A DNA stretch of 53,235 bases from a virus, in IMG/VR virus record IMGVR_UViG_3300008448_013349, positions 1 through 53,235 of that record; one strand, written 5' to 3'. Made by a program: the position numbers and the translations under genes. This document shows positions 2,283 through 53,235 of the stretch, piece by piece. Position 1 is the first letter of the stretch; each line of letters opens with the position of its first letter. The notes under the pieces are model-generated. The model saw only the letters and a list, made by a program, of their open reading frames with translations, was not told where the DNA came from and made no database searches.

Positions 2283-2317
2283 CTGTTTTTTTGTTTTTAA
2301 AGAAAGTTTATTACTAT

Positions 2318-2325
2318 CAAATATA
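2318..2325 (-). promoter_or_regulatory. Putative Bacteroidota-type -7 promoter box
   Basis: The minus strand reads TATATTTG here, matching the Bacteroidota -7 consensus TAnnTTTG. It lies 36 nt ahead of the ATG of the outer-membrane gene. I found no clear TTTG at the expected -33 spacing, only a T-rich run. This is a half-match and would also occur by chance in AT-rich DNA. Confidence 0.35.
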
Positions 2326-2349
2326 AACAAAAAAAACGAAAAAAAGAAC

Positions 2350-7707: not shown

Positions 7708-7719
7708 TTTTATATCTTT

Positions 7720-8826: not shown

Positions 8827-8844
8827 ATTTTATAAATACATTTT

Positions 8845-30792: not shown

Positions 30793-31547
30793 ATTAGTTT
30801 TTTGTTAAAAAATTTTTTAAAAACAATATCTGCCCAATATTTTTGACCATCCTCACCCCAGTGAGCAAACTCAACATGGGATGGCATTGGTATTTGAGAT
30901 ATTTTACTCATGTGTTCCCAGAAAGTATCCATCTCTTCTTTAAATCCAATGTATCTATTATCTGGAATTTTTTCACATACATAATCATATAGGGCCATAT
31001 AATCATAATATAAAGTATGTGTATTATCTAGCCACTCTTTTTTTAATGGGGCTGTCATTCCATTAATATAATAGTATTTGATTTTGTTATTTTCCAAAAA
31101 CTCAGTAAAGTTAATCATCATCGTTAAAAACTCAAAAGAACTAAATAAAGAATCATGAAAATCTACAATACTTTGTCCTAATCTCACAATTTCTTTACTC
31201 ATTTGAGTTCTAATATATTCTGGTTTACATAATGGATTTACATCATCTAAAATATTTGTATCATGAAAATAGACCTCTTTCCTATCAAATCCAGACCACA
31301 TTATCATTATAGCCACATCTTCTGGTTTATATTTCTTTTTTATTAAAACATTTTTAATTATCCAACTTTGTGTTGTTCTAATTATTCTTTGATTACTCGA
31401 TCCGGCTTTTGCTATATTAAGATGTTCGCAACCCAATCTATCTGCAACAAATTTTGGCCAAGCTTTTTCATAACAGGTTGGTTGATTTTTATATTCTATT
31501 TCGGCCCCTGCTGTATGACTACATCCGTTTACTAATAATAATTTCAT
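30789..31547 (-). CDS. SGNH-hydrolase-like protein C
   Basis: A 252-aa protein. LLVNGCSHTAGAEI gives block I as GCSHT with Ser9 as likely nucleophile, and NIAKAGSSNQRII gives block II. VEFAHWGEDGQKYWADI provides a terminal His block, with D-x-x-H not exact. It resembles phage SGNH proteins in surface-glycan clusters that are thought to acylate or deacylate. It overlaps both neighbours by 4 nt, between the large B12 radical SAM and the dehydrogenase. Confidence 0.62.
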   Translation of the reverse strand: MKLLLVNGCSHTAGAEIEYKNQPTCYEKAWPKFVADRLGCEHLNIAKAGSSNQRIIRTTQSWIIKNVLIKKKYKPEDVAIMIMWSGFDRKEVYFHDTNILDDVNPLCKPEYIRTQMSKEIVRLGQSIVDFHDSLFSSFEFLTMMINFTEFLENNKIKYYYINGMTAPLKKEWLDNTHTLYYDYMALYDYVCEKIPDNRYIGFKEEMDTFWEHMSKISQIPMPSHVEFAHWGEDGQKYWADIVFKKFFNKKLI

Positions 31548-34500: not shown

Positions 34501-35047
34501 ACCCTTGTTTTTGGTGGAATCTATTTTCGATTAATCCTGTATTTTTAATCCATAGTGGTGTGTAATCATCATGAAAATTTTCAACACTTCTTTCAATAAC
34601 AACCAAATCATCATTCTTACCTTCCCAACCACCATAAAATGGTTTACCAGCTTTTACCCAATTTTTTGTATTAACTAAAACAAATTGGTGATGTAATTCA
34701 TACCAATTTTCCTTCCATTCCAATATATGACCGGCGGCCATATAATTAGGGGTGTTGAGTATTTCTTTCTCGATATCAAATATTATACTACTATCAAATA
34801 TTCTAACACCAGCGGCCATAAATAATATGTGATCATATTTTTCATGGTTGTTGCTTAATGCGTCGTCTATTGAATTTTCTATAAAAATAGGAATGGAATT
34901 ATTACTGATTTCATTTATTCTATACGCATAGAATTTAGTAAAATCAATCATTCTTTCACTCAACTCATCATTGTGTAATGTGTCTGCATGGAATATACAA
35001 ATCGATAGATTAATATTATTGGAAAAGCTATCATTAATTTTGTCCAT
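31544..35047 (-). CDS. Giant B12-binding radical SAM protein (1167 aa)
   Basis: Residues 1-~200 look like a degenerate glycosyltransferase-type region (HILFMAAGVRIFD, FYGGWEGKNDD). Residues ~215-480 hold Rossmann-like segments (FDVIALPAGGFKFLDILKN, VVIYDFNPKSLNWI) that could be a methyltransferase-like module. Residues ~525-670 are a B12-binding-type domain (VMAICPSWGVIFPPYGLSK, VGFSMYTT, VLGGPAVA). The radical SAM core follows with RGCVAQCSFC (C745, C749, C752) and SYGVESGS. The last ~200 residues are unassigned. B12 radical SAM enzymes often methylate unactivated carbons or drive rearrangements. The fused N-terminal half is unusual. Substrate unknown. Confidence 0.8.
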   Translation of the reverse strand: MDKINDSFSNNINLSICIFHADTLHNDELSERMIDFTKFYAYRINEISNNSIPIFIENSIDDALSNNHEKYDHILFMAAGVRIFDSSIIFDIEKEILNTPNYMAAGHILEWKENWYELHHQFVLVNTKNWVKAGKPFYGGWEGKNDDLVVIERSVENFHDDYTPLWIKNTGLIENRFHQKQGWNFINEALKNGFDIINWNQGIRNKRTYYYPESDSQKFLDCLKTGEVDTTLNVNQVKLLQSQFSVKNQIWVLNSEDMLLTYLHKETKFDVIALPAGGFKFLDILKNNFLRDNGKVVIYDFNPKSLNWISFFLENSDQNIKKSIKEFEFNNNFHFLGMGQKVFGMDGNFTNNFLDSLNRTFEYFGGEENFHELIRRFKELNLKLINVDLFNNPSLLINELDGKSNYLSVSNIFSTDYTNAFIGLKNVVKYYDELKDSLPNNTVLVGFNPECKYVDELILDSEIKEQLSNISGDRDQLILKHILERDSGSTRQIPMNHASAHLGGPTGILKYQNFDEPVALKDFNPGRERIVMAICPSWGVIFPPYGLSKIVGVLRHEGFSCKVYDLNVQLYHNLMERTGEDYWRSEKFFYWEDSWFFNNYLLKEIEPYIDKAAEKIIADNPTLVGFSMYTTNSQATLLLVKKIKEKAPSIPIVLGGPAVATESWLLSQQFSKYVSYFFKGEAEDSFVKFLNDQTHRKPLPIDGIFIGDTNSKINLDEKPYADFSDYDLDSYLHRDGVSIETSRGCVAQCSFCAETYFWRFRSMTPERVIEEMKYQIDNYGVKRFWFVDSLVNGNLKNFEKLVDLIIENKLEIGWNSYSRCDGRMSRDFIQKVADSGCTALSYGVESGSQKVLNDMRKKIEIWEIENNLRDTYTTNKIWTHVNWLIGFPTEKYIDYYHSNILIYNVRKYIHQLSPGMGCGPSVLSDLQERFDIYGIAWKERVWDNQFLGNWYTHGYKNTQLNRFIRIKLFHIWLEILKDYAGSVIDNPQRHHDIYDSYVFKTQNMNIDEYMPQQGNINFTLITEDKSTSFLSTNVANEFLPIFYGLYKIFRGFKLKVIFDPNKDITSWGSISVNYEAVVEFDIDNFGNYNYNIRHQLKHFGMTPKIESVYKWERENTHGDMSFSDTFSFSGNIKDWETNEDYVEETIHEQYRNKSKKISIPISNNKLI

Positions 35048-36693: not shown

Positions 36694-37667
36694 TAATCAA
36701 AAATTTCAATTCTTTCGATGCCATTAACTTGTGTGAAAACTTCTCTGTTCCATCTTGTTTTACAACTTTCGTCACCTAGAGCCCAAGCAACAGATGGACC
36801 TGATGGTGTAAACCATTTTGCAATATCTGGTTCAATTTCTTTCATACTATCGTCAATGATAATTCTTCCTAATTTATATCTACCTAAAGATAATTTATGC
36901 ATATTATCAATTGGAACCTTAGCTTGAACATCTGGTGCCAACGTTGTATACCATTCATAAAAACTCTCTCTAATAGTGTTTGTCATATCTGGGCCAAAAT
37001 TCATCCATGTTTCTGGCGCAAATCTAATTTGCGGTCTAACCTCATCACGTGCAATTACCTCCCAATCATTTTCTGGAGCAATTGATAAATAATCCTTTCC
37101 TAATGTATTATAACCACAATAAAGCCCACCCCATTCAAATCTATCTTCTAAAAACAGTTTGTCAACTTCTGTTACTGGTTCATGTAATCCGGCTGGTAAG
37201 AAATCATAAAGACAACTGAAATTTGGGAATTTATGATGTGATCCATGAATTGCTGTTTCAATCATATGGATAAACTCATTTAATGCTAAAAACTTTTCAT
37301 GAAGTTCTTTAGACCATTTCTCAGCTTTTTGAAGTTCCACAATTCTGTCACCATAAACTTCAAACTCTTCATGCAAGTAATTTAAAATAGCGTTATCCAA
37401 TTCTTTAAAGTCAGTAAATGTAGGTAAAACTTTATCATAATTAGCATTTATGAACACAAGAACGTTGTTAATTTGCTCCATCAAATAACCAATATTGTTA
37501 AATTCATTATTTGTGATTCTTGCTTTTATTTCCATTTTATTTCCTAATGACTGCTTTGTCATTTCTATCCATCTATCCACCACTGGATTATTATTGTATA
37601 GATTGTAATGAATGGGTAATAAACCACCGTCTTTTTTAGTCATAACGACTTTTAATACTCGTGCCAT
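36693..37667 (-). CDS. Unknown protein between radical SAM genes
   Basis: A 324-aa soluble protein with no motif I recognise. The centre is helical (ELDNAILNYLHEEFEVYGDR, EKFLALNEFIHMIETAIHG). The C-terminal half holds FEWGGLYCGYNTLGKDYLS and RYKLGRIIIDDSMKEIEPD. It is wedged between two radical SAM genes with 1-nt and 16-nt overlaps, so it is likely their partner or substrate-binding protein. His-rich GSHHKF could bind metal. The function is not assigned. Confidence 0.6.
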   Translation of the reverse strand: MARVLKVVMTKKDGGLLPIHYNLYNNNPVVDRWIEMTKQSLGNKMEIKARITNNEFNNIGYLMEQINNVLVFINANYDKVLPTFTDFKELDNAILNYLHEEFEVYGDRIVELQKAEKWSKELHEKFLALNEFIHMIETAIHGSHHKFPNFSCLYDFLPAGLHEPVTEVDKLFLEDRFEWGGLYCGYNTLGKDYLSIAPENDWEVIARDEVRPQIRFAPETWMNFGPDMTNTIRESFYEWYTTLAPDVQAKVPIDNMHKLSLGRYKLGRIIIDDSMKEIEPDIAKWFTPSGPSVAWALGDESCKTRWNREVFTQVNGIERIEIFD

Positions 37668-38929
37668 AATTGTAATAATTCTTTAAAGGTTTCTTTATGA
37701 TTTAAATTTCTGTATAAATCCATTTTTATAAGATACTCGTCAAATTGATCTAAAAATGATGAGTTGTCTTCAGAGTTCATTAAATTAACCATTTGTAGAA
37801 AATTGGAAACATTCAATGTGTCTTTTTTTGCTTCTACGTAATCTGTTAATTTCTTTGTTATATGGTCCTTTACCTTTTGTGGTAATATTTTGGTGGACAA
37901 ATAATTTGGCCCCCATAAAACACCTGTATGAAATATAGGATCATGTTTTCTATGTACTATGATTTTTTTATAGTTCTGTTGCTCCAACCAATCAGCAAAT
38001 TCAGGTAAATAAAAAATGTTTAATGCTTGGACAGTATATAAAATTTTAAAGGACATATTTTCAGATGAGTTATCATCATACATTCTTAAATTTTTTTCTA
38101 TGATCGAAAATTTAGACGGGTATCTAACATATTCAGTAACTTTATCAATACCATCTATTGAAATAAACAATTCAACTTTCTTGAAGTGTTTCCACAGTTC
38201 CATTAGTTCCGTGTCATATATTGTTCCGTTTGTATGATAGTTAACCTGTATGTTTTTCGCATAACCTCTTTTAACCATCTCTTTAATAATCTCTTTGTGC
38301 TCTTTTATAAGTAATGGTTCTCCGCCAGCAAAAATCATTAAACGCATGCTACCGCAGCTTTCATAAAAGTCTTCGAGGAATTCTTTTCTTTTATACCATT
38401 CAAATTTAGTGATATCTAATTGAGATTTATGTTTCCAGTCCCACTTAGCATTTGTTTCTAGTTCATTAGCAAGTTTCTTTGCTTCATTAAACCATTTAGA
38501 GCTATCTGTTGGTCTACACATAACACAAGCTAAATTACATGTGTTACCTAATCTAAAATCTAAGGTGTATAGTTCATTCTCTATTGTACCATCATCATGT
38601 GTATTTTGAACTAACTCATCAACAAATTCTTTTGTTAAAAGTAAATCCCATAGATGGTTTTCGTTCATTCTGTGACTTTTAACGCCAACACTCTCTTCTC
38701 TCCAACAAACGGAACATCCCTGAAATTTTTCACCATTCAATAAAGACAATCTAGCTTTTTTAAAGTATTCACTATTTTTAACCTCATTGATGGTATTGTG
38801 GTTTAGGTTTAACCCACTATCTGGTTGCGCAACACAACATAGTAATGCTGTACCATCAGTATACGTTGCTGTATGTATCCATGGCAGCACACAGAAGGTT
38901 TCACTTTTATTTCTATCTTTATTTTGCAT
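37652..38929 (-). CDS. Twitch-domain radical SAM protein 1
   Basis: A 425-aa protein. The N-terminal twitch-like domain has FCVLPWIHTATYTDG with Cys13, Cys31-32 (LLCCV), then C72-x2-C75. The radical SAM motif C131NLAC135VMC138 and IFAGGEPLLIKEH follow. IDGIDKVTEYVRYP is the conserved second-half motif of this group. The layout matches the N-terminal-twitch radical SAM family (N_Twi_rSAM) known from phages and bacteria, of unknown substrate. It overlaps both neighbouring genes by 11-16 nt. Confidence 0.85.
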   Translation of the reverse strand: MQNKDRNKSETFCVLPWIHTATYTDGTALLCCVAQPDSGLNLNHNTINEVKNSEYFKKARLSLLNGEKFQGCSVCWREESVGVKSHRMNENHLWDLLLTKEFVDELVQNTHDDGTIENELYTLDFRLGNTCNLACVMCRPTDSSKWFNEAKKLANELETNAKWDWKHKSQLDITKFEWYKRKEFLEDFYESCGSMRLMIFAGGEPLLIKEHKEIIKEMVKRGYAKNIQVNYHTNGTIYDTELMELWKHFKKVELFISIDGIDKVTEYVRYPSKFSIIEKNLRMYDDNSSENMSFKILYTVQALNIFYLPEFADWLEQQNYKKIIVHRKHDPIFHTGVLWGPNYLSTKILPQKVKDHITKKLTDYVEAKKDTLNVSNFLQMVNLMNSEDNSSFLDQFDEYLIKMDLYRNLNHKETFKELLQLWHEY

Positions 38930-40232
38930 AGTGTGCTTTTAAATGTTCATTTAATTCGGTACACGCATCTTCAAATGTTTGTTTTCTATTGGCATCTAAT
39001 ATTTTGGTGTACGATTTGAAATTCTCCAGGTAAAGATCTGATCCAGGAATTCGTTCTTCTTTCAATAAATTAAGTATTGCGTAGGTGCTATTTTTGGTCA
39101 TCTCGTGACCTTCAACTTTTTCTTTATTGTTATTAATGTAATTATTAAGTTTATTCCACGCTGCTTCTTTAATTTCTGTTGGTAATATCTTAATATCCAA
39201 ATATCTTGGATGTGTATCAATTAAGAAATCAATAAAGATTTTTCTTTCAAACCTTTCGCTTACGTCCGCAACATAATCTATAATCTTATCCAAATCAAAT
39301 ATATTATAGATTTGAACCACGGGAGAAACACCAAGGTTGATGTTTTTCATGCTTGCTAACTTTTCAAAATTTTGGCTAATCTTATGCCAATGCGATGGGT
39401 ATCTGATATAGTCATTCATACTACCAAACCCATCTAAGCTTGCGTTGATATCTACTCTATCAAACTTGGATAGTACGTTTGTAAATTTCTCAGTTAGATT
39501 TGAACAGTTTGTATTAAAAAACATCACAATGTCTTTGCGACCTCTTTCAATACATTTTTCCATGAAGTAATAATTGTTTTCAATCAATGTGGGTTCGCCT
39601 CCGGTCATATAAACCTTTTTTAAAGTAGGGATCATTGCTTCAACTTGGTCCCATAACATATCACTTTCAAACCAAGTTTCTTGGTTCTTTAAATGAACCG
39701 GGCTTCCACCATATTCAGAAGAATAAACTCGTTTATATTCAGGATCTTTTTCCCATAGATCAAAGTGTTCTTTTGCAATTGCACTTGAACTATATGGGTT
39801 ACACATCCTACATCTGAAATTACAAAGGTTACCTAATCTAAGGTCTAGGTAAACTGGATTTGATTCTATCACCCCGTCTTTCTCCATCGCCTCTTTAACC
39901 AGTGCGTCCATTTTATCCGCCCCTATTCTCCATATCCATTCTCTGGTCATCATATCTCTATAACCTTCTCTACCGATCTTATTTTGGAGATCGCATTTCA
40001 TACAAGCGTCCACTTGTTCCCCAGCGATCATTTTTTTTCTAACGTCCCTTACGGTATCCGAATTCCACGCATCTAGCAAGGTAGCTGTTGTTGCGTGTAG
40101 TGTTTTACCATCTGTTTTTAGATCTGTATTTTGGGCACCACCTTCAGCTATACAGCAATACTTAAATTTACCGTCGCTGTTGACCATTGTACTAACAAAT
40201 GGCATGGCGCAGAATGTTTTTGAATGTTTCAT
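38919..40232 (-). CDS. Twitch-domain radical SAM protein 2
   Basis: A 437-aa protein from the ATG at 40232 (MKHSKTFCAMPFVS). A TTG 39 nt further up would add a non-conserved stretch. Twitch Cys are C8, C26/27 and C77-x2-C80. The radical SAM motif is C137NFRC141RMC144, then VYMTGGEPTLIENN and ASLDGFGSMNDYIRYP. It is a clear paralogue of the next gene and of the one near 44 kb. After the start the chain is continuous down to the hydroxylase region, so it may lead an operon of radical SAM genes. Confidence 0.86.
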   Translation of the reverse strand: MKHSKTFCAMPFVSTMVNSDGKFKYCCIAEGGAQNTDLKTDGKTLHATTATLLDAWNSDTVRDVRKKMIAGEQVDACMKCDLQNKIGREGYRDMMTREWIWRIGADKMDALVKEAMEKDGVIESNPVYLDLRLGNLCNFRCRMCNPYSSSAIAKEHFDLWEKDPEYKRVYSSEYGGSPVHLKNQETWFESDMLWDQVEAMIPTLKKVYMTGGEPTLIENNYYFMEKCIERGRKDIVMFFNTNCSNLTEKFTNVLSKFDRVDINASLDGFGSMNDYIRYPSHWHKISQNFEKLASMKNINLGVSPVVQIYNIFDLDKIIDYVADVSERFERKIFIDFLIDTHPRYLDIKILPTEIKEAAWNKLNNYINNNKEKVEGHEMTKNSTYAILNLLKEERIPGSDLYLENFKSYTKILDANRKQTFEDACTELNEHLKAHYAK

Positions 40233-40275
40233 GTGTATCTTAAATATATATATTTTATTCGATAAAGTCAACTTT

Positions 40276-41133: not shown

Positions 41134-42485
41134 TAGTTTATTAATTTATTAAAAAATGATTTTGTTGATTTATCTTCCATTAACATGTTAAAGTTGTGAA
41201 TCAACGTTTCTTCCATTTCTGTTAATGTTCTTTTTATTTTATCCGAATCCCATTCTGAAATGTCTTCTAGAACTTCTATTATTTTTTCAAATCTGCTTTG
41301 ATATTTTAACTCGTCATAGCTCTCGTCCCACCATTTATCAAACGTCTTAAACCCATATTCTTTTAGTTTTTTTAAACTGTTTCTGTTACCCACTAAAATA
41401 AATGGTTGCAATGAGAATATTGGTTTTATAATTTTTTCCGAGAAAAATATCAAATTTTCACTGGTGATTGTTTCTGTAACAACATTACAAAAAGTCTTAT
41501 GATGCACGTCCAAGTTAATTCGCACAGATTGTTCTTGTTCCATGGATTCTGTGTCATATAGATAATCTTTATTTGGGTCTAAATTATCTACAAACTCATA
41601 TAGTCTTTCATGACCGTGTTTATAATTTTTATCTATAAATCTTCTAACAGCTTCTCTATGGTTCTGCCCGTTGATCATATTTTGATTACCTAATGTCACT
41701 ATTGTTTTGTCTTTTAATTTTTTGTTTGTTATTATTTCAGCAAACAATGCGACCCTGTGATCATGTGGTTTTCTATTGAAGCATAAGAAGTGTTTTTCTT
41801 TTGGTGTGGCTCTAAGCTTATGTAAATTTTCTACTAAAATATTCTCATACAAGTGTTTTGAACTTTCTTTATGAAAATTTTCTTTAAAAAACCATAACCT
41901 ATGGAAAAAATAATTGAATTCAATTATCTTAAAATTATCAATTATGATTTTTTCTTTAACATATTCATCTTTTACCTCTGGTGCGATTAGATTAGATGAA
42001 ACGAAAATAAAGTTATTGTTATTAAGTTCGTTTTTAGATGAAAAATTAGATAACCATTCATAACAGTGTTGATACATGAACCAGGGTTCGGTTATGTAAA
42101 AAATCACAAACTTACACTTACCTTGTTTTATCTGGTTTTTTACTTTAGGTGGTATATCTAAGTTAATGTCTTTATCAAAAATATCATTATTCCATATTAA
42201 TATTGAATATAAAAAATCTAAATTATTATCGATGTAATAATCAACGGTGTTTATATCAATTTTATAAAGATCTGTATTTAAATTCGAAAAAATACTTTTA
42301 CCGTTTAGAAAAATAAAATCATCTTTATGTATTTGATCAATTTGCGCCGGGAAGCCACCATATTTTTTATTGTATGGCTCAATATCAAATCCATATACGT
42401 CTTTAGAAAACATATTTGGGTATGGTACTAAGAATTGATTGTCTTCACCAACTACAAGGGGGCTATCAAAACCAAAATTAATCAT
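41133..42485 (-). CDS. GT-B-type glycosyltransferase-like protein
   Basis: A 450-aa protein. The N-terminal half is unassigned (MINFGFDSPLVVGEDNQF). KEKHFLCFNRKPHDHRVALF and then FFSEKIIKPIFSLQPFILVG-N plus GFKTFDKWWDESYDE form the EK..kP....PFI...GF.TF...dESYD signature of fucosyltransferase/exostosin-like GT-B enzymes. An addition of deoxyhexose or other sugar to a glycan is the family role. It has 1-nt and 4-nt overlaps with its neighbours. Confidence 0.68.
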   Translation of the reverse strand: MINFGFDSPLVVGEDNQFLVPYPNMFSKDVYGFDIEPYNKKYGGFPAQIDQIHKDDFIFLNGKSIFSNLNTDLYKIDINTVDYYIDNNLDFLYSILIWNNDIFDKDINLDIPPKVKNQIKQGKCKFVIFYITEPWFMYQHCYEWLSNFSSKNELNNNNFIFVSSNLIAPEVKDEYVKEKIIIDNFKIIEFNYFFHRLWFFKENFHKESSKHLYENILVENLHKLRATPKEKHFLCFNRKPHDHRVALFAEIITNKKLKDKTIVTLGNQNMINGQNHREAVRRFIDKNYKHGHERLYEFVDNLDPNKDYLYDTESMEQEQSVRINLDVHHKTFCNVVTETITSENLIFFSEKIIKPIFSLQPFILVGNRNSLKKLKEYGFKTFDKWWDESYDELKYQSRFEKIIEVLEDISEWDSDKIKRTLTEMEETLIHNFNMLMEDKSTKSFFNKLIN

Positions 42486-43177
42486 AGAATATACTCTTTT
42501 GGTACAAGTTCACAAAAATTAAAATTAGATGATTCATCAAAAACATCTTTTCTTACATTGAGTGTCTCAAAATCGTAGTAACATAAAACGTTTTTATCCT
42601 TCTTATTTATTGTCTTCAACTTTTTAATATTTGTTTCGTTTTTGATTATTGAAAATAAAGAAATCTCTACTTGAGAGAAACATCTATCTTTTGGGTCCGC
42701 TGCACCTGGATTCAAAGCACCTAAAAAAAATGGTGAATTTTTGTATTCATCGATAAAATCACCATTACATTTATAGTACTTAACCAACTTGTCATTTACA
42801 TATATCATAATAATATTATCAATTTTAGTGAATATAAAATTAATCCCACTATCAATTGTGTCAGAATTAATTTTTTCAAAAATCATACAGTTAAACTCTA
42901 CAGGATCTTTTTTTGTTCTGAATTCAAAAACTAACGAATCTATATCACTATCAAAATTTAACCCAAAATTTTGTCCGGATTTCCCGAAAATACCGGCTTT
43001 AGTGTCCTTGATAAATTCTTTTTTTATTCTAAAATTACATAGAATAGCAAAATTATCTCTAAATAAAATATTTTGTAGATCGATATTGTCTCGCTTAGCA
43101 ATATCGGTCTCACTATCAAATTTATTTATATCCCATTTGTATTTTATCCAATATGGTTTTTTATACTCTATGACCAT
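42482..43177 (-). CDS. LamG-like (concanavalin fold) protein
   Basis: A 231-aa protein if the ATG at 43177 is used; a TTG three codons upstream is also possible. Alternating beta-strands include FAILCNFRIKKEF, LVFEFRTKKD, IIMIYVNDKLVKYY and CFSQVEISLFSII, followed by LCYYDFETLN. This is the LamG-like pattern (ligand-binding sandwich with the ..i.vNd.lv.. hairpin). No catalytic motif. It probably binds a glycan, and the two GT7 proteins 1-3 kb upstream contain the same fold. Confidence 0.5.
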   Translation of the reverse strand: MVIEYKKPYWIKYKWDINKFDSETDIAKRDNIDLQNILFRDNFAILCNFRIKKEFIKDTKAGIFGKSGQNFGLNFDSDIDSLVFEFRTKKDPVEFNCMIFEKINSDTIDSGINFIFTKIDNIIMIYVNDKLVKYYKCNGDFIDEYKNSPFFLGALNPGAADPKDRCFSQVEISLFSIIKNETNIKKLKTINKKDKNVLCYYDFETLNVRKDVFDESSNFNFCELVPKEYIL

Positions 43178-44573
43178 GTTTTTCAATAAATTTTTCTAAT
43201 TCTGGGAAATAGTCTAAGCAATTCATACCCCTCCTTATTTCATATTCGGTAATAAATTTATTAAAGTTCTTTATGTCCGTATAGTGTTGTGTATTTTTAT
43301 CAACCCCTTTAATAAAGTATTCTTTTAACCTTGTTATTTTTTCAATTTCTTTTAGCGAAAACCCAACATCTTCAATAGATTGAGGTTGGTAAAAATTCAG
43401 GCTTCTGTAACTAGAATTAAATAACATAAATTTTTCAAGCTCAATAAATCTATTAATATCAATAAAATCAATTAATAATTTGAAACTTAAAAAAGATGGG
43501 TATCTTAAATATGATGTATCTAAGATGATCGGAGAATTCCAATACCTCTCTGTGTTAAAATGTTTAATTTTTAAATCTGATATTGTTTTAACCAACCTAT
43601 CATAAGAAAAAATACTGAATATGTTAAATGTGGACATTACAACAACTGTAACCTTGGGTAACTTTTCTAAAATCTTATCAATATTAGAAAATAATTTATC
43701 AAAATTTAATCCGTGTCTAATGTACTCAGCTTGTTTACCATACGTGTCACATGATGTATATATTATACATTCTTTTACTCGTTCTTCCTCAATAATTCTA
43801 TCAAGATTTTCTATTAGCTTATCAATTAGCCCATCTTCAACACCTAGATTGCTGTTGATAGATAATTTTAAGTTTTTATTTGGGGATTCTTTTGATAAAA
43901 TATCATTTAATAAAGCCCAGAAATCTTTTGATAATAACGGCTCTCCTCCGGTAATTCTAAACGTATCTAAGTTTGAATATAGTTTTGGCCACCACTCCCA
44001 AAAAGCGTCAACATAAGGGTTTTGATCTGAATGTTTGTACGGCTTAGTTTTATTTTTTTCGATTTCCGTTAAACCGTTATATTCTGTTGATTGTAATTTG
44101 TACCCACCATACTTATTTACCTCTTCCATCCATTTTGACGAATATATTGGGCCGCAATAAGCACACTTAAAATTACAGATATTGGAAAAACTAACTTCAA
44201 CATATTTTGGCATATAGTTCTCCCTCCAATGCATATCAGTAATCTCTTTAAAATATGGTTCTGACCATGGCTCTGATGATTTAAAAATCCTATCTGAAAA
44301 GGAATCCGAATTATCTTCTATATTCCAGCAATATTGACATTCGCTTGGTCGTTTACCCTCAAGCATCTCTTTTCTGGCTTGTTTTTTTTGCGTGCTGTTG
44401 TGTAGTGCTGTAGGATCTCTTTTAATTTCAGCTAAACTTACTTTATGGGGCGCAGGGTGATGACATGAATGTGTCATTCCATTATGCAGGTGCATAGTAA
44501 CTTGAGTCCATTTGGCTAAACAGAACCCACACCCAATAGCATTAAGCTTTATTTTAGTTTCCTCGAACCCCAT
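43161..44573 (-). CDS. Twitch-domain radical SAM protein 3
   Basis: A 470-aa protein. The N-terminal twitch part has C15-x2-C18, HSC37HHP and C79-x2-C82. The radical SAM motif is C133NFKC137AYC140, then FRITGGEPLLSKDF and IYTSCDTYGKQAEYIRHG. The C-terminus ends with FPELEKFIEKHG. It is longer at the C-terminus than its two paralogues. It is coupled to the GT7-LamG gene by TAATG, so its substrate may be glycan-linked, but that is only context. Confidence 0.85.
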   Translation of the reverse strand: MGFEETKIKLNAIGCGFCLAKWTQVTMHLHNGMTHSCHHPAPHKVSLAEIKRDPTALHNSTQKKQARKEMLEGKRPSECQYCWNIEDNSDSFSDRIFKSSEPWSEPYFKEITDMHWRENYMPKYVEVSFSNICNFKCAYCGPIYSSKWMEEVNKYGGYKLQSTEYNGLTEIEKNKTKPYKHSDQNPYVDAFWEWWPKLYSNLDTFRITGGEPLLSKDFWALLNDILSKESPNKNLKLSINSNLGVEDGLIDKLIENLDRIIEEERVKECIIYTSCDTYGKQAEYIRHGLNFDKLFSNIDKILEKLPKVTVVVMSTFNIFSIFSYDRLVKTISDLKIKHFNTERYWNSPIILDTSYLRYPSFLSFKLLIDFIDINRFIELEKFMLFNSSYRSLNFYQPQSIEDVGFSLKEIEKITRLKEYFIKGVDKNTQHYTDIKNFNKFITEYEIRRGMNCLDYFPELEKFIEKHGHRV

Positions 44574-45970
44574 TAATTCATTTTTACATTAATAAATTTA
44601 GTATTTGGATACATACTATCATCAATATTGTCGATAGATAGTGTATTCATAATTTGAATTAATCCATCGTTTTTATAATCAATTTTTTTCTGTTGCATCT
44701 GAGTAACAAATCTTTTTTCATTTCTGGCAGTTGTTTCACCTTTTGCCCATGTACCATTAACAAATCCTTCATCAATGTGTGGTAAACAATAAAATCTACT
44801 TTCTCTACGATACGGAATTACGTTTTCAATAACTTCAATATCTTCTTTTGTAAAAAATACGTTTTGATTTATAAATGCTTGGTTGTTAAAATCGCTTTCT
44901 AAAACCAAATTCTCTCTATTGGTTTCCATATCTTTTATATTACTAAAGAATGTGTTGTATATTTTGATATCAGATATTTTACCTTTATAATACACATTTG
45001 AGTGGTTACAAAAACCAATTAAAAATGGTTTAACCGAATCGTGAGTTCTTAAGTCGTTTCTAACCGGGAACGGTAAATTTTGCTTTACCCCATTCATTTG
45101 ACAAATTAATTCGTCATTAACATAGAAATAAACATTCTTTTCTTCACTATTAAACGTCATTGTAACTTGTGTCCATAATCCTTCAAATCTTTTTGCCCAA
45201 TTATAATGATGCATATTATTTCTATCGAACAGCTGCATAGTAACTGCTCTAGAATTGTTAAAAGACATACCCCATGTCCAACTACCGTCTTTTCTTATTA
45301 GTGGATATTCAACAAATACTCTTTGTTGATCACCAACAAGCCAAATGGGTACCTTATCATTTTGTTGTTCAGCATTAAAGGTGATGGTAATTGTGTGATC
45401 CTTGTGTAAACATGAACTTATTTCTCTATTTGTTGGGAACATTAGATACGAGTTGTTTCCATTGAAATTTGCAACAATTTTATCAGATTGTTTTTTAATA
45501 ACCCTACCTGTGGTTAATCCTTCAAAATAACATCTCCAGAAAAGGTCATCATCTTCTTGTCCCCAATCCCAATAATCATTTGAATAACCATTAGATAATT
45601 CTGCTTGTTCTTTGGTAAAAAGAACAACACCACCAAAGTATTGATCATAACCTAAGTTATAACCATATTTCGATAGCTTTGTGGCGATGTGTATTGGGGT
45701 ATCTGTGGGATATGAATAATCAGCTTCCTCGTGTGGCAACATATCAACATCGTGCCACGCTATGTAATCACAACCATCTTCAAAAGCAATGTGCGCGGCA
45801 ATGTTTTTCATTGCCCCTCGATTAAATAATTTATCATCTACTTGATGACCGACATAAAATGTGTGTTCAATTCCTCTTTCATTTAAGTGTTTAGTTAGAT
45901 GAGGAATTAACCTGTCAATATGATCTTTTCTATTCCGATAGGGAATACAAATTCCTAGTTTGTGTTTCAT
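44573..45970 (-). CDS. GT7 galactosyltransferase-like enzyme with inserted LamG domain (copy A)
   Basis: A 465-aa protein. The N-terminal half reproduces the beta-1,4-galactosyltransferase fold: PYRNRKDH (10-17), FNRG (49-52), DVDM (74-77, metal site), YFGG (111-114), YWDWGQEDDD (133-142). A LamG-like domain then starts with ANFNGNNSYLMFP (~167-365). The GT7 C-terminus resumes with RFYCLPH, ARNEKRF and YKNDGLIQIM, corresponding to the R-M-I-R-H, QRF and SDGLNSL parts of animal enzymes. Cys stands where those have the metal-binding Met; the His is kept. An insertion into the catalytic fold is unusual. It may add galactose or GalNAc to a glycan bound by LamG. Confidence 0.82.
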   Translation of the reverse strand: MKHKLGICIPYRNRKDHIDRLIPHLTKHLNERGIEHTFYVGHQVDDKLFNRGAMKNIAAHIAFEDGCDYIAWHDVDMLPHEEADYSYPTDTPIHIATKLSKYGYNLGYDQYFGGVVLFTKEQAELSNGYSNDYWDWGQEDDDLFWRCYFEGLTTGRVIKKQSDKIVANFNGNNSYLMFPTNREISSCLHKDHTITITFNAEQQNDKVPIWLVGDQQRVFVEYPLIRKDGSWTWGMSFNNSRAVTMQLFDRNNMHHYNWAKRFEGLWTQVTMTFNSEEKNVYFYVNDELICQMNGVKQNLPFPVRNDLRTHDSVKPFLIGFCNHSNVYYKGKISDIKIYNTFFSNIKDMETNRENLVLESDFNNQAFINQNVFFTKEDIEVIENVIPYRRESRFYCLPHIDEGFVNGTWAKGETTARNEKRFVTQMQQKKIDYKNDGLIQIMNTLSIDNIDDSMYPNTKFINVKMN

Positions 45971-47394
45971 ATACCAACATTAACATGTAATATTTTATCT
46001 CTATAAGTTTTACCATGTTCAATAAACTCTAGAGTAGATAATCCATCTGATTTTAATAATTCGTTATTTAAAAAAACTTCATTATGATATCTTAATTGGT
46101 TCCATCTTGTTGCTTGATCCTTCCATTTATTACCTAAAAATCCATTCTCCTCATGTTTTAATGACTTAAAGAGAGATTTTCTTCTATATGGTATCTTAAC
46201 TTCGGTAAACTCATCATATTCTTCATCAATAATTTCGCAATTAACTATCTTACCGTTATTATCATTATTAGTTAAATCGGTCAACTCATAGTTGTCGATA
46301 AAATTTGCATCATAATAAATTTTTAAAGAGTCTTTGGATTTATATTTTCCAAATGATTTATTTAAATAAAATTTATCATTGTTGGATATTTCCTTAATCT
46401 CATCATCATTTAATATTTCATCATAATATGCAAAAGAATCAATTGTACCTTTAAATAAATTAGGTATTTTTTCCCTATTTGGTTTACCAACACCTAAATA
46501 AAAATTGGGTTCTTTTCTGTAAAAATATAGTTTCTTAAATCTTCCAGTTTGGCCAATTAATTCACCGTCTTGATAGACTTTAATTATGTTTTCGCTTTTA
46601 TCTAAAACGATAACCATATTAGTTTTATAATTTGTTTTTATTGGAGAATTAACAAAGTATGGTGTATTATTAGAGTCAAAGGCACAAAAATTATATCTTG
46701 AAAACGAATTATAACAAATACCAAAATCCCAACCAGGGATGCTAAATGCAGTAAATTCATCAGACTCTTTTGTGTGATCTAATACTAATTTTTCGGGATA
46801 AAAAGAAATAAAAAACGTACCATTGTTATTTAAATCGATGGTGTTTTTACATTCAACATATGAATCAACACCATTAAATTTAAGTGACTTACCTTTTCTA
46901 CCGATATTTTTAATATGTAGTTTATCTAAACCTATTCCACTCACCTTGCATCTTAACAATAAATCGGTATCTTCATATCCCCATCCCCAGTATTTGTTTG
47001 AATAGCCATCTATTTTTTCAAAATCTTCGGTAGTAAACATTGTTACACCACCAAAATATTCCTCAAATATTTCCCTGGTTTTTTCTCCCGGCTCTAAAGT
47101 AAAATTAGTAGCTAGGTGTAATGGTTTATCATAGTATGAGTAGTCAACATCAATTGGTAACATATCGACATCGTGAAACACAACATAATCACATTTTAAT
47201 TTTTGTGCATATTTGAAGCCAATGTTTAGCAACATGCCCCTATTAAACTGTTTTGCGTTATCTTGGTCCACAACGATTATCTCATACTTTATTTCTTTTT
47301 TTTTTAGATAATCGGTCATATGTAATAGAAATTTATCTAAATGATTTTTTCTATTTCTATATGGAACAATAATACCTAACTTATGTTTATCCAT
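45967..47394 (-). CDS. GT7 galactosyltransferase-like enzyme with inserted LamG domain (copy B)
   Basis: A 475-aa protein from the ATG at 47394; a TTG just upstream is less likely. The same architecture as copy A: PYRNRKNH (11-18), FNRG (50-53), DVDM (75-78), YFGG (113-116), YWGWGYEDTD (135-144), closest to animal WGWGGEDDD. LamG starts with LKFNGVDSYVEC (~171-182) and runs to ~365. The GT7 tail resumes with SLKHEENG (His kept, Ser at the metal-Met position), LRYHNEVF and KSDGLSTLEF. The overlap of 4 nt with copy A implies co-translation. Two diverged copies suggest different linkages or acceptors. Confidence 0.84.
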   Translation of the reverse strand: MDKHKLGIIVPYRNRKNHLDKFLLHMTDYLKKKEIKYEIIVVDQDNAKQFNRGMLLNIGFKYAQKLKCDYVVFHDVDMLPIDVDYSYYDKPLHLATNFTLEPGEKTREIFEEYFGGVTMFTTEDFEKIDGYSNKYWGWGYEDTDLLLRCKVSGIGLDKLHIKNIGRKGKSLKFNGVDSYVECKNTIDLNNNGTFFISFYPEKLVLDHTKESDEFTAFSIPGWDFGICYNSFSRYNFCAFDSNNTPYFVNSPIKTNYKTNMVIVLDKSENIIKVYQDGELIGQTGRFKKLYFYRKEPNFYLGVGKPNREKIPNLFKGTIDSFAYYDEILNDDEIKEISNNDKFYLNKSFGKYKSKDSLKIYYDANFIDNYELTDLTNNDNNGKIVNCEIIDEEYDEFTEVKIPYRRKSLFKSLKHEENGFLGNKWKDQATRWNQLRYHNEVFLNNELLKSDGLSTLEFIEHGKTYRDKILHVNVGI

Positions 47395-47590
47395 CAATTG
47401 TTGGGTCTTTTGGTTTTACTGATTTGTGAAATTCATGTAAATAAAACTGAATTCTGTCGCTCCATTCTTGTTTATCGATTTCTTCAAACCAAATAGTTAA
47501 TGCATCTAGCGAATTAGCTATCTTTTCGAGAGCTTTTACTTTTTTTTCTTCTAACTTTAAAAGTTGTTCTTCTTTTTCTGCCTTTGTCAT
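47387..47590 (-). CDS. Small coiled-coil protein
   Basis: A 67-aa charged protein. MTKAEKEEQLLKLEEKKVKA forms an obvious heptad helix, continuing to about residue 40, then EWSDRIQFYLHEFHKS. There is no motif. It is joined to neighbours by 8-nt and 4-nt overlaps. Possibly an adaptor for the glycosyltransferases on either side. Confidence 0.6.
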   Translation of the reverse strand: MTKAEKEEQLLKLEEKKVKALEKIANSLDALTIWFEEIDKQEWSDRIQFYLHEFHKSVKPKDPTIDG

Positions 47591-48438
47591 ATTGATATGA
47601 TTTTTTTTATTAATTTATCCCATTGTCTATATCTTTTGAATTCAGCTTGTCCATCGCTTTTCTCAAACATAAATTCTGGGTTATCTAGATTTATCTTGAA
47701 TCTTGATTTACCTAGTTCTTTATACATTAATCTATATTCTTCAGAGTACGCGTATTCTTGGCTAACACTAGCAACCGCTTTAACTCTATCTATAGAAGTT
47801 TTATCCCACTTAAAATGGTGAACTTGTACATATGAATGTGGATTAATTAATGGGTGATTCCATCCCTGCCATCTCCAGGTTGTTTGGCCATTAATTTTTG
47901 CGTAATGTTGGCCAGCTGTTATTTCAATATAGCCTTTCATTACACAAACTTTATTTGGACAGGCTTTGCTCATCGGGTATCTAAAAAATCCCATGTTAGG
48001 AAATTGTTTAAAAATACTAACGTCATCTTTTAGCTCAGAAAATTCACCGTCTGGGCCTATTCTATCAATAAATCCACCTCTAACTAGATCCCATCCAAAT
48101 TTTTCACAATTACTAATTAATTTTTTTAAATCATCATTTGGATATAGATGAAACTCATCAATATCGGCAATCACCCACCAGTCATTTGGGTTTTTTGATT
48201 TTACCATATTGTACAATGTGGTAACCTTTTCCCAATCAAAAACCCTGTCTTCAATTGTTTTCACAATCTTAACATTTTTGTGATTTTTTATGATTTCTTT
48301 TACTTCTTCAATTAAAGATGGTTGTATAACTGATTGATATACAACGAATTGTATTTCGTCTACATACCGAGAGTAGTGATCAATAAAATGCGGAATTAAA
48401 TTTGTTCCGTGGCCTATAACTGAAAGCGCTCTAATCAT
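47587..48438 (-). CDS. Glycosyltransferase (GT2/GT92-like)
   Basis: A 283-aa protein. The N-terminal MIRALSVIGHGTNLIPHFIDHY and DWEKVTTLYNMV precede WWVIADIDEFHLYP, the DxDE motif of GT92/GT2-type enzymes that act with UDP-sugars. WRWQGWNHPLINPHSYVQVHHFKW supplies the acceptor-side His/Trp part. A soluble enzyme without membrane segments. 4-nt overlaps with both neighbours. Exact sugar unknown. Confidence 0.68.
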   Translation of the reverse strand: MIRALSVIGHGTNLIPHFIDHYSRYVDEIQFVVYQSVIQPSLIEEVKEIIKNHKNVKIVKTIEDRVFDWEKVTTLYNMVKSKNPNDWWVIADIDEFHLYPNDDLKKLISNCEKFGWDLVRGGFIDRIGPDGEFSELKDDVSIFKQFPNMGFFRYPMSKACPNKVCVMKGYIEITAGQHYAKINGQTTWRWQGWNHPLINPHSYVQVHHFKWDKTSIDRVKAVASVSQEYAYSEEYRLMYKELGKSRFKINLDNPEFMFEKSDGQAEFKRYRQWDKLIKKIISI

Positions 48439-49163
48439 TTTTTTCGATTAATAATGGTAATACCACTTGACGATGGTTTATCCATTAATATACGAAAATT
48501 ATGCAAATTAATCAAGTTCCAGTCATTGTTTTTCTCAAGTTCTTTTACTAACCTAGATGGCCCGTCAAATTTGTAGAAGTCTTTCTTAGCGTCTTCGGAA
48601 ACAATTAGTGTTTCTTCATAACTTGAGTCGGTGTCGTGAAGAACTATCACACCGTTATCTGATAAAAGTTTAGAGTAAAGATCAAAATCCTGTTTTACTC
48701 CTTCGTACGAGTGATCCCCATCAATAAATAATAAATCTATTTTAATATCTTGTCTAACAAAAAAATTATAATACGCATCGACTGAAGTCGATTTAATAAG
48801 ACGCGGGTAGAATTTGCTACGAAAGAATGAGGATTCGTTTTCAAGGTCGTTAGGGCCACCAACACCATTACATGCATCGACAAGATAAGTGCTACCAATA
48901 TCCCCCCAATTATAATCATTGTTTCCATCAAATATTTTTTGGTTATATAAATCTATTCTTGCTTGTGTCATGATTCTAGGGATATATCCACCTCCAGAGC
49001 CAATACAAACACAAACTTTAGCTCTCATGTGCTGTATAAGAGAATACACAACAATCCCATCTCCCATATGTAAATCTGTTGCCCCATGTGTCCAGCGATA
49101 AGGTACAGATTCATCATTATTGTTAGTGATGTTCTTTCTAATATATTCATTGTTCGTTATCAT
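48435..49163 (-). CDS. Class I SAM methyltransferase (Methyltransf_24/CmcI-like)
   Basis: A 242-aa protein. KVCVCIGSGGGYIPRIM is motif I, DLLFIDGDHSYEGVKQDFDL is the characteristic metal/SAM-site motif of this family, followed by GVIVLHDTD. Such enzymes methylate oxygen atoms of sugars or small molecules. It is overlapped by 4 nt with glycosyltransferase genes on both sides, so a sugar O-methyltransferase is the natural guess. Confidence 0.78.
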   Translation of the reverse strand: MITNNEYIRKNITNNNDESVPYRWTHGATDLHMGDGIVVYSLIQHMRAKVCVCIGSGGGYIPRIMTQARIDLYNQKIFDGNNDYNWGDIGSTYLVDACNGVGGPNDLENESSFFRSKFYPRLIKSTSVDAYYNFFVRQDIKIDLLFIDGDHSYEGVKQDFDLYSKLLSDNGVIVLHDTDSSYEETLIVSEDAKKDFYKFDGPSRLVKELEKNNDWNLINLHNFRILMDKPSSSGITIINRKK

Positions 49164-50425: not shown

Positions 50426-51196
50426 TTAAACGTCTGTAAAAGATAAAAATATTGCACCATATGGATAATTATCACCACTAGAGCCAGACCAATAAACCGC
50501 GCCACTTTGATCAAAACCAAAATAGTTTCCATCCCAACACGCACCATACCACCAAGGATTATTTGCATAAGAAGTTGAACAGTTTGCACCGTATGCGTCT
50601 TGGTCATTATCATATGTTGTTAACGAATAACCATTTGTTGCATGATACCCATATAGTCCTGGTGTTGATCCTCCTACATCGTTGACAATTCCTCTAGGAT
50701 ATAAAAACGCATATGTGGATGACCAGCCACTAAATTTCCATCTTGATCTCTTACTGTGTGAACCAGATAATCCGGTTGCTGATGATGAAACATATTGACA
50801 AATAGTGTTACCTAGATACGGCCAGTACTGTAATCCAACCCATAGATTAAACCCTAAACTTGAATTATAAGTACCAACAGTATTAATTACAGGATTAGTT
50901 GCATTCGCATATGTTAAACTTCCGACAGCACCAGTTCCTTGTCTGTTTGCAATAACCATTACCCAAGCTCTTGTTGAATCGAAATCAAAATTCACATAAA
51001 ATAAATTAGCACCTAACCCACCTGGATTAAGATAGTACATTCCATTTGTTGAAATTCCTGCATTGAATTTCAAATAGTTAGCTGATGGAGCCGCTTTTTC
51101 TGCTGTAGATCCGTCTAATATCAACGTGTAGTTTGATGTTCCTGAAGAATCAAACGACCTTGTACCTAACTGTGATGAACCGATGTATATTGACAT
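50426..51196 (-). CDS. Fibrinogen-like-domain virion protein
   Basis: A 256-aa protein. NGMYYLNPGGLGANLFYVNFDFDS and WVMVIANR match the start of fibrinogen-related (FReD/intelectin-type) lectin domains. NPWWYGACWDGNYFGF, near the end, matches their conserved C-terminal WWY-C-N..G segment. The N-terminus IGSSQLGTRSF has the short adapter look of fibre-tip proteins. It likely binds carbohydrate as an adhesin. It follows two LamG adhesin candidates. Confidence 0.62.
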   Translation of the reverse strand: MSIYIGSSQLGTRSFDSSGTSNYTLILDGSTAEKAAPSANYLKFNAGISTNGMYYLNPGGLGANLFYVNFDFDSTRAWVMVIANRQGTGAVGSLTYANATNPVINTVGTYNSSLGFNLWVGLQYWPYLGNTICQYVSSSATGLSGSHSKRSRWKFSGWSSTYAFLYPRGIVNDVGGSTPGLYGYHATNGYSLTTYDNDQDAYGANCSTSYANNPWWYGACWDGNYFGFDQSGAVYWSGSSGDNYPYGAIFLSFTDV

Positions 51197-51199
51197 ATC

Positions 51200-51997
51200 T
51201 TATGCGTATAATGTTACCCCCATTTGGTTAAATAGGTTACTATAATAATTATAGACCTCGTTTATTCTTGTTGAATTTAAATCAACGTTCCATACCATAC
51301 ATGAATGTAGATATCCAACCTCCATGATACCGGTATAACCATTACCTATTTTTACTGTTGATGCTTGTAAAATATTAGTGTCACTTCTACTTGTATAATT
51401 TGAAACCCAACCAGATGATGATGTATAATAAAATCCTGTGCTGTGATTTGCGTTTCCTTTAATTGCAATAAAATTCCACTGATTTAATGTATATGTTTTA
51501 GTGTCAGCATAATCATATGTTCCTTCTTGTCCACCAGCTCTATACCAACTCATAGTGTTCGCAACTTCCCAAGTACACGCCAATTCTTGTTGATATGATG
51601 CATAAGATGTCCCAGATTTATCAAATAAATTATGTCTTGCACTATTAGATGGAAACCAATAAATTAAAACTAATGTAAACGCACCTCTTAAATCAACCCT
51701 ATTATTCATTGTTGAGTTAGCAGATTCCCACCAACTTTGACCATTAAACGCTATTGCTGGCACACTATTAACCCACACTTTCGGTGTTGGGGTAGTAGTA
51801 TAGGGTTCTCCACTATTTCTTGAATTGAAACACATGCCATACACTGAATCACACCAAGTAGATGAACTTCCTTGGTAGTTGTTGGCATTTAAATCCATTA
51901 CCAACCCATCTGTAGGAAAATTATAAAAAGATCTAATTTCTCCACCAGAATTGGCACTTGATGCCGGTATACTATTTCCACCTATTATTAAACTCAT
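51200..51997 (-). CDS. LamG-like virion adhesin
   Basis: A 265-aa protein. The N-terminal MSLIIGGNSIPASSANSGG resembles a phage attachment segment. LamG-type strands follow, for example GLVMDLNANNYQ, ALVLIYWFPSN-like and WNFIAIKGNANH. It ends with MEVGYLHSCMVWNVDLNSTRIN and a YNYYSNLFNQ tail helix, typical of LamG proteins in fibre operons (i..v.iYn..Ls..ei...y). The start overlaps the upstream stop by 3 nt or less. Confidence 0.6.
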   Translation of the reverse strand: MSLIIGGNSIPASSANSGGEIRSFYNFPTDGLVMDLNANNYQGSSSTWCDSVYGMCFNSRNSGEPYTTTPTPKVWVNSVPAIAFNGQSWWESANSTMNNRVDLRGAFTLVLIYWFPSNSARHNLFDKSGTSYASYQQELACTWEVANTMSWYRAGGQEGTYDYADTKTYTLNQWNFIAIKGNANHSTGFYYTSSSGWVSNYTSRSDTNILQASTVKIGNGYTGIMEVGYLHSCMVWNVDLNSTRINEVYNYYSNLFNQMGVTLYA

Positions 51998-53235
51998 TAT
52001 AAACCGAATCTTGCTTTTTGTGTTCTAAAAGCTTGACCTGCTTCGTCTGCAGATAAAACTCTGTTATATACTTTACATAAACCCATTTGTCCATCAATAC
52101 TAAATCCTGTGTTACCTCCCCATGAACCATAAGGATATAATGTAAACACCCCTGCACCAACGTTAGCATTACCTGATGATGGTGCATCACCTGTAATGTT
52201 ATGATTTTGTGAACCACTAAATTCACCACCGTTTATGTAATAACCCATTTGTGATGAATTTGCCCAACAAACAATATGTGTCCAAGTATTATTTGATAAA
52301 TTTCTAGCAAATGATATACTATTGTCGGTAGAACCAGCATACAAATAAAAAGAACCAGGAAATATCCAAATATTATATTGACCTGATCCGTTCCATGGTT
52401 TTGTGAAAAATACACCATTGGTATCTGTTGATTTGACCCACATTTCAATTGTCATTGTTGATCTACCAATTGCACCATTAGGGGACCACGCAAAATCGGG
52501 AGCACTACCACTAAAAATTCCCATACCACCAACACCATCAAAATTAATTATACCCTCATTACTTGAACTATATGAGTATCCATTGTAAAGTGTTAATGTT
52601 CTACTATTACCACTTAAGTCTGTCATGGACGCTCCGCTACCTGGATAAGAAGCCAATGACGCTGGATCAATCCAAGCTTGTAAACCTCTGGTTATTCCAT
52701 GATATTTTTCTCTTGTTGCAAAATAATTTTGTAAAACTTCAGTTGGGGTTAATGCTCTATTATAAATTCTAACTTCAGCAATACTACCACTAAATTGTCT
52801 TGATGAACCTTCTCGTCCTATGGATAAGTTTGATCCGGATGCGCCCCCATTAGTTGTTGTTGCTGTTCCAACAAAAGTTCCATTAACATATTGATACAAT
52901 CTACCAGCTCTACCATCCCAAACAGTACACCAATGGTGCCATGTTTTTCTTGCAGAAGGGCCGTTTGTTTCATGATACCCATCAGCGCTACTACAATACC
53001 AATAGGTTGACAAATATTGATTGGATTTGTTCCAACTCATATATTGTCCGCAGTTTCCTGTTAATAAAATAATTGTTCCTCTGTCTCCTGATGTTACTTC
53101 CGACGCTGCAGCATAAATCCACGCTTCAAAAGTCCCTTGAACATTTGGTTGTGTACCACTATATGTACCAGTAATCCAAGCACCATCAAAATTCATATTA
53201 AATCCTTTAACACCATTAAATGTTGATGTGCTCAT
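51997..53235 (-). CDS. Two-LamG virion adhesin, possibly incomplete at N-terminus
   Basis: At least 412 aa. Its first visible Met codon is exactly at the right edge, so the true start could lie beyond. Two LamG domains are seen: residues ~1-178, with GTFEAWIYA, WHHWCTVWDG, YVNGTFVG, IAEVRIYNRALTPTEV; and ~179-412, with LQAWIDPAS, STMTIEMWVKS, WTHIVCWAN, YYINGGEF, GLCKVYNRVLSADEAG. Such tandem LamG proteins are glycan- or protein-binding adhesins of marine phage tails. The stop overlaps the next ATG (TAATG). Confidence 0.72.
   Translation of the reverse strand: MSTSTFNGVKGFNMNFDGAWITGTYSGTQPNVQGTFEAWIYAAASEVTSGDRGTIILLTGNCGQYMSWNKSNQYLSTYWYCSSADGYHETNGPSARKTWHHWCTVWDGRAGRLYQYVNGTFVGTATTTNGGASGSNLSIGREGSSRQFSGSIAEVRIYNRALTPTEVLQNYFATREKYHGITRGLQAWIDPASLASYPGSGASMTDLSGNSRTLTLYNGYSYSSSNEGIINFDGVGGMGIFSGSAPDFAWSPNGAIGRSTMTIEMWVKSTDTNGVFFTKPWNGSGQYNIWIFPGSFYLYAGSTDNSISFARNLSNNTWTHIVCWANSSQMGYYINGGEFSGSQNHNITGDAPSSGNANVGAGVFTLYPYGSWGGNTGFSIDGQMGLCKVYNRVLSADEAGQAFRTQKARFGL

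Follow-up and report, generated by a model that had tools for sequence, protein, structure and literature searches.

A LamG-like domain inserted within the GT7 fold of two neighbouring phage glycosyltransferases

Two GT7 proteins interrupted by a LamG-like domain

The window analysed here is the whole of an IMG/VR virus record (IMGVR_UViG_3300008448_013349; 53,235 bases), on the minus strand of which two adjacent genes encode proteins of glycosyltransferase family 7 (GT7): gene A (44573-45970, 465 amino acids) and gene B (45967-47394, 475 amino acids, counted from the ATG at 47394). On the evidence of sequence, profile comparison and predicted structure, in each of them a single GT7 fold is interrupted, at one site common to the two, by one inserted LamG-like sandwich. 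A previous sequence-only reading had placed the motifs PYRNR, FNRG, DVDM, YFGG and W-x-WG-x-ED-x-D ahead of a LamG-like domain of about 200 residues and the GT7 His and DGL segments after it, so that the catalytic domain would be interrupted ahead of its last metal ligand. All of these elements were found in that order in both proteins, the inserted domain of 220-235 residues adjoining the active site after the xED helix and ahead of the metal-binding His, and the part that follows it reading CLPH...DGL in A and SLKH...DGL in B.

The domain order and the insertion site were computed from several comparisons. The Pfam models Glyco_transf_7N and Glyco_transf_7C together covered residues 2-159 of A (E-values 3e-15 and 9e-19) and 3-159 of B (7.5e-25 and 1.4e-18), in each case above the curated cut-off. 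Laminin_G_3 matched residues 217-334 of B with 33.7 bits, against a cut-off of 27.6 bits, and residues 171-341 of A with 27.4 bits, which is 0.2 bits under the cut-off; the same model scored above it in the relatives L018 and L093. In sequence searches of the PDB, B matched B4GalT1 and B4GalT7 over residues 3-158 (E down to 4e-30), and A matched B4GalT7 and B4GalT1 (down to 8e-31) with alignments ending near residue 158, apart from one extending to residue 189; these matches spanned E-values of 1e-26 to 1e-31. When the insert was removed in silico and the joined halves were compared with PDB sequences, the bit scores were little altered and the match ended near the junction; a single-sequence search is too weak for the divergent lid, and the outcome carries no weight either way.

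The identity of the C-terminal piece was established with a profile (gt7c) built solely from LamG-bearing proteins. This profile matched the C-termini of ordinary bacterial GT7s in register, with E-values down to 1e-7, and the possibility of a LamG domain followed by an unrelated tail was therefore rejected. In uninserted proteins (n = 42) the two GT7 profiles abut, with an offset of -9 in 41 and -6 in the other, whereas 183-249 residues separate them in 368 LamG-bearing proteins, not all of them distinct. Since so many proteins have the same gap, chance is excluded, and the search for other GT7s with an insertion of about 200 residues, which the sequence-only reading had suggested as a check, thus came out in its favour. 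A fusion or assembly artefact was also ruled out, as the pair is intact at 61 sequence-distinct loci.

The predicted structures agree with this arrangement. AlphaFold models were built from 53 B homologues and 52 A homologues and reached a mean predicted local distance difference test score (pLDDT) of 91.5 and a predicted template modelling score (pTM) of 0.88 for B, and of 91.8 and 0.86 for A. As had been anticipated, in both models the GT7 core closes around a β-sandwich. Alignment to B4GalT1 (1tvy) with VIA-align gave Z 25.6 over 213 residues at 2.3 Å for B (model range 1-475) and Z 27.7 over 214 residues at 1.8 Å for A (model range 1-465); because the N-terminal part comprises only 163 residues in B and 159 in A, at least 50 and 55 of the aligned residues, respectively, must come from later in the chain. 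Identity to B4GalT1 and B4GalT7 was about 30% over 191-216 aligned residues, and the best structural matches were closed-state B4GalT structures (1tvy, 4irq), ranking over 1fgx and 4irp. The middle parts aligned separately to the LamG domain of PAPP-A and to pentraxins (Z 16-21 for B, 16-19.5 for A), with neurexin and other concanavalin A-like (ConA-like) sandwiches also among the matches (Z 16-21). In the models, therefore, the middle of A and B is a jelly-roll LamG sandwich, and the C-terminal piece completes the GT7 fold.

The position of the insert was set against known landmarks of GT-A enzymes. In the models, the xED helix (residues 140-151 in B, 139-149 in A) is followed by a strand (from residue 157), then by LamG and then by the metal-His segment. 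In the GT-A common-core scheme, the tail beyond strand β8 constitutes hypervariable region 3 (HV3), and the C-His is part of the C-terminal tail (PMC7185993). The hypervariable regions are where acceptor-specific features arise (PMC7185993; PMC7948508), and in other GT-A enzymes acceptor sites are built by HV3 insertions (PMC7948508). In human B4GalT1 the lid comprises residues 338-365, with the metal ligands Met340 and His343 at its start, and the metal site is created on lid closure (PMC6198961). Set against this lid, the order of elements in A and B suggests that LamG enters just ahead of the lid with the metal His, that is, in HV3, the preceding strand being probably β8 as judged from element order rather than from residue-level alignment.

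The GT7 hallmarks, namely the DxD motif, the xED catalytic base, the Trp loop and the metal His, are all present in A and B. No variation was seen among the 53 B and 52 A proteins in the PYRNR Arg residues, in FNR, in the two Asp of DxD, the second YFGG Gly, the two Trp of W-x-W, the xED Glu-Asp pair, the metal His or the DGL Gly. The (E/Q)YFGG Tyr is likewise invariant in both; it occupies the donor-selectivity site, the Tyr285 (human) or Tyr289 (bovine) of B4GalT1 that governs donor choice (PMC6198961), and UDP-galactose is therefore the likely donor of A and B. Asn replaces this Tyr in two bacterial GT7-LamG proteins (L125 3941-5431 and L121 400-1881). The sequence-only reading was also right that the Met of the metal site is replaced, since Cys395 of A and Ser411 of B stand at the site of B4GalT1 Met344. 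Across the family, this position is Cys in all 52 A proteins and Ser, Leu, Ala or Pro in B, and in the uninserted bacterial GT7s sampled it is mostly Ser, Ala or Pro. Because bacterial GT7s seldom carry Met there, Cys or Ser at this site is unremarkable, and the invariance of the Cys in A is worth noting.

Comparison with known systems indicates that, while the GT7 transferase and the LamG fold are both known, their combination with LamG inside GT7 appears to be new. B4GalT1 and B4GalT7 (CAZy GT7) share the fold, DxD, xED, Trp loop, C-His and donor Tyr of A and B; however, they are Golgi enzymes without a LamG insert, and the third metal ligand of B4GalT1 is Met instead of Cys (A) or Ser/Leu (B). 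The uninserted GT7s of bacteria, phages and giant viruses have homologous N- and C-terminal parts in the same order, but with no domain between them. GALNT (GT27, of the same GT-A clade as GT7) and MGAT4A (GT54) also combine a GT-A transferase with an acceptor-guiding lectin domain; that domain, of ricin B or CBM32 type, is appended C-terminally and lies outside the fold (PMC9296478, PMC7185993), unlike the LamG of A and B. The GT-A fold of PGAP4, a glycosylphosphatidylinositol N-acetylgalactosamine transferase, is split by an insert thought to bring the site to the acceptor, but PGAP4 is a eukaryotic Golgi enzyme and its insert a pair of transmembrane helices (PMC5785973). Glycan-modification clusters of jumbo cyanophages likewise group several glycosyltransferase genes in large phages, whereas in the available part of that survey LamG domains are placed on tail fibres or virion parts and none inside a transferase (PMC7824862). 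No description of a GT7 enzyme with an inserted LamG was found in the literature, the coverage of which was incomplete, so that this absence is weak evidence. Among the best 50 viral structures listed for BFVD, each matched one half or the other and none both. The earlier statement that no enzyme with this layout had been described is thus consistent with the literature, the PDB and BFVD, although contigs of uncultured phages commonly show the arrangement.

Distribution, ancestry and conserved gene order

The A/B family is widespread in uncultured T4-like phages of 200-335 kb carrying Gp23, and bacterial homologues of it are rare. Single-sequence scans of IMG/VR returned 55 loci for B and 60 for A, and a profile scan at least 569 relatives, the best 80 of which all matched over full or nearly full length; many of the viral records are fragments. 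Gp23, the T4-type capsid protein, was present in all of 12 records (211-336 kb) that rank among the largest, and terminase in 11. Every one of the 12 encodes a pair of GT7s as long as the inserted form (open frames of 459-496 residues), and in one record a third GT7 occupies a frame of 820 residues. A 310-kb phage having both A and B also encodes a 799-residue fusion of an N-acetylglucosamine-type transferase (PF11397) with GT7, in which no insert was noted (L292 2090-4489). In L093, two further GT7 paralogues, divergent but interrupted at that same site, lie upstream of A (3-1334 and 2188-3483), the latter occupying the usual position of B. No relative was found among 50,697 records of cultured phages.

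The cellular collections contained mostly uninserted GT7s, with inserted forms at loci L118-L121, L125 and L188. L125, which stands beside a GT2 gene and an ATP-binding cassette (ABC) exporter, looks cellular, with L121 as its close relative; the remaining inserted loci may be viral contigs binned with bacteria. Uninserted GT7s were recovered from bacteria (Azospirillum, Pelagibacteraceae, Chlamydiota, Planctomycetota), phages (L049, L051-L055) and giant viruses.

In a tree computed from the GT7 parts alone, with the insert removed, the A clade (support 100/98) had L121 and L125 at its base and the B clade was supported at 100/99. Inserted and uninserted forms required 2-3 changes between them, and a single clade of inserted forms was neither rejected nor shown by the approximately unbiased (AU) test (p 0.43). 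There was no clear loss of the insert within either clade, three seemingly uninserted rows within A in a first tree having proved to be open reading frames cut at contig ends. The A and B profiles aligned end to end, LamG included (hhalign E 2e-80). From these sequence comparisons, one insertion preceding the A/B duplication would be the simplest reading, although it is not proven.

A and B belong to a conserved cassette of methyltransferase, GT2, B, A and twitch radical S-adenosylmethionine (SAM) genes (Table 1). The order B then A was kept in all 61 distinct loci; a GT2 gene directly precedes B in 55 of 57 loci, ahead of the GT2 gene stands a methyltransferase gene, again in 55 of 57, and directly after A comes the radical SAM gene in 54 of 61. 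In many relatives (e.g., L007 8813-10933 and L022 8815-11634), the radical SAM protein carries, fused at its N-terminus, one or two copies of the free-standing LamG-like domain of the window. Since the inserts, the free-standing domain and these fusions are related, three cassette enzymes are tied to related LamG-like modules, which suggests one shared docking module. In L018 (4148-6916), A and the radical SAM protein stand in one 923-residue frame, possibly by a sequencing frameshift.

Table 1. Parts of A and B and the neighbouring cassette genes in the window
Feature	Position	Strand	Evidence
B, GT7 N-terminal part, residues 1-163: PYRNR, FNRG, DVD, EYFGG, WGWGYEDTD	46906..47394	-	Pfam 7N/7C, PDB search, model
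B, inserted LamG/ConA-like sandwich, residues 164-399	46198..46905	-	Laminin_G_3, 5e-8; model residues 167-400
B, GT7 C-terminal part, residues 400-475: metal His414, Ser411 at Met site, DGL	45970..46197	-	gt7c profile, B4GalT1 alignment
A, GT7 N-terminal part, residues 1-159: PYRNR, FNRG, DVDM, QYFGG, WDWGQEDDD	45494..45970	-	Pfam 7N/7C, PDB search, model
A, inserted LamG/ConA-like sandwich, residues 160-383	44822..45493	-	Laminin_G_3, 4e-6; model residues ~162-381
A, GT7 C-terminal part, residues 384-465: metal His398, Cys395 at Met site, DGL	44576..44821	-	Conservation 52/52; B4GalT1 alignment
Methyltransferase (Methyltransf_24)	48435..49163	-	Pfam, 9.4e-13
GT2-type glycosyltransferase (Glyco_tranf_2_4)	47587..48438	-	Pfam, 1.1e-6
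Twitch-domain radical SAM protein (NF033640), start overlapping A stop	43161..44573	-	NCBIfam, 2.2e-93
Free-standing LamG-like domain related to inserts, a conserved neighbour	42482..43186	-	Insert profile, 1.7e-12; hhalign to family B, probability 94.7, E 6e-8

Proposed function of the insert

From the computed fold, residue conservation, gene order and spread, we infer activity, donor, acceptor docking, sequential action and a virion or host-surface target. With a probability of about 0.5, A and B would be active GT7 enzymes whose LamG domain docks the acceptor close to the active site. They would be paralogous, catalytically competent, metal-dependent inverting transferases, probably using UDP-galactose, and the LamG module would bind an acceptor, either a glycan or a glycoprotein, on which the neighbouring enzymes had already acted, and would present it to the active site. 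A and B could act in sequence within a glycan-modifying cassette directed at the virion or the host surface.

Acceptor docking is favoured by the position of the insert in HV3, by its degree of constraint and by the analogy with GALNT and MGAT4A, the lectin domains of which guide or support catalysis (PMC9296478). The positional entropy of the inserts is 1.74-1.76, against 0.80-1.45 for the GT7 parts; the insert is thus constrained, but less so than the catalytic parts, as expected of a substrate-facing module. Several points weigh against this reading. The models are predictions from shallow family alignments, made without ligand or complex, and B, with Ser, Leu, Ala or Pro at the position in question, is without the third metal ligand, which may lower its metal affinity. 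The insert resembles LamG and pentraxins in fold, with no lectin sugar-site residues picked out, and LamG folds serve in pure protein-protein contacts as well.

Such contacts would be the role of the insert if it were an assembly module, holding A, B and the radical SAM protein in one complex or tethering them to the virion or a membrane, which we regard as possible but less probable than docking. The invariable adjacency of A and B, the presence of related LamG-like domains within both GT7s and also next to, or joined with, the radical SAM protein, and the joint frame in L018 would all fit an assembly role, as would the lectin domain of POMGnT1, which is thought to recruit the enzyme and a partner and not to drive catalysis (PMC9296478). 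On the other hand, a site beside the lid and the C-His, and not at a terminus, is odd for a simple tether, and the conserved residues of the A insert mostly differ from those of the B insert, although more overlap would be expected of a common dock. Alternatively, flanked as it is by the strand that follows the xED helix and by the metal-His segment, the insert could act as an allosteric gate where the lid is rooted, a LamG ligand controlling lid closure and hence metal and donor binding, as the corresponding Met340 and His343 of B4GalT1 lie in a lid whose closure forms the metal site (PMC6198961). However, the predicted states are all closed-like, and we consider this unlikely.

It is slightly less likely still that a mobile phage LamG fold entered a permissive loop and was kept as a harmless passenger. 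LamG folds are abundant in phage proteins and occur elsewhere in the window (51997-53235), and conservation is lower in the insert than in the GT7 parts. However, none of the full-length A and B proteins recovered, over 39-84% identity, lacks the insert, neither clade shows a clear loss, and 39 of its positions in B and 34 in A are conserved at 90-100%; the A insert includes an invariant NNSR motif (residues 238-241). The least probable explanation, which we regard as highly improbable, is that A and B are catalytically dead GT7-like binding proteins. The single metal-ligand position that is not conserved in B would be in agreement with it, but DxD, xED, the Trp-loop Trp, the C-His and the donor Tyr are invariant in 105 proteins, and Met is absent from the same position in uninserted bacterial GT7s as well.

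In a rather doubtful scheme, large T4-like phages would encode a lectin-organised assembly line, in which related LamG modules, lying within the fold of the two GT7s and N-terminal to or beside the twitch radical SAM protein, dock all three enzymes on one glycosylated target and, in the GT7s, act via the lid. The insertion itself clearly exemplifies a GT-A catalytic core that naturally tolerates an entire lectin-fold domain beside its metal site, in the loop thought to be where acceptor specificity evolves. Because hundreds of homologues, two paralogues and uninserted relatives as controls are at hand, the gain of acceptor specificity by insertion can be tested directly in this family, which also points to a conserved but uncharacterised pathway of glycan modification in large phages that are uncultured.

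Other genes of the window

Three twitch-domain radical SAM proteins (NF033640) lie within 7 kb (37652-38929, 38919-40271 and 43161-44573), two of them with an N-terminal SPASM-like segment. A further protein of 1167 residues (31544-35047) carries B12-binding and radical SAM domains, which is unusual in a phage; its best NCBIfam match, below the cut-off, was a radical SAM C-methyltransferase of ribosomally synthesized and post-translationally modified peptide (RiPP) maturation (1.2e-41). Next to the cassette, a Fibrinogen_C-like segment was found at 50426-51196 (1.5e-5), and Laminin_G_3 matched two stretches of the protein encoded at 51997-53235 (1.7e-32); each is perhaps a fibre or adhesion protein. 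Three tandem paralogues of phrog_1417, of unknown function, occupy 6592-9978, and a NodU/Nol-like carbamoyltransferase (phrog_1601, 1e-124) is encoded at 27974-29638.

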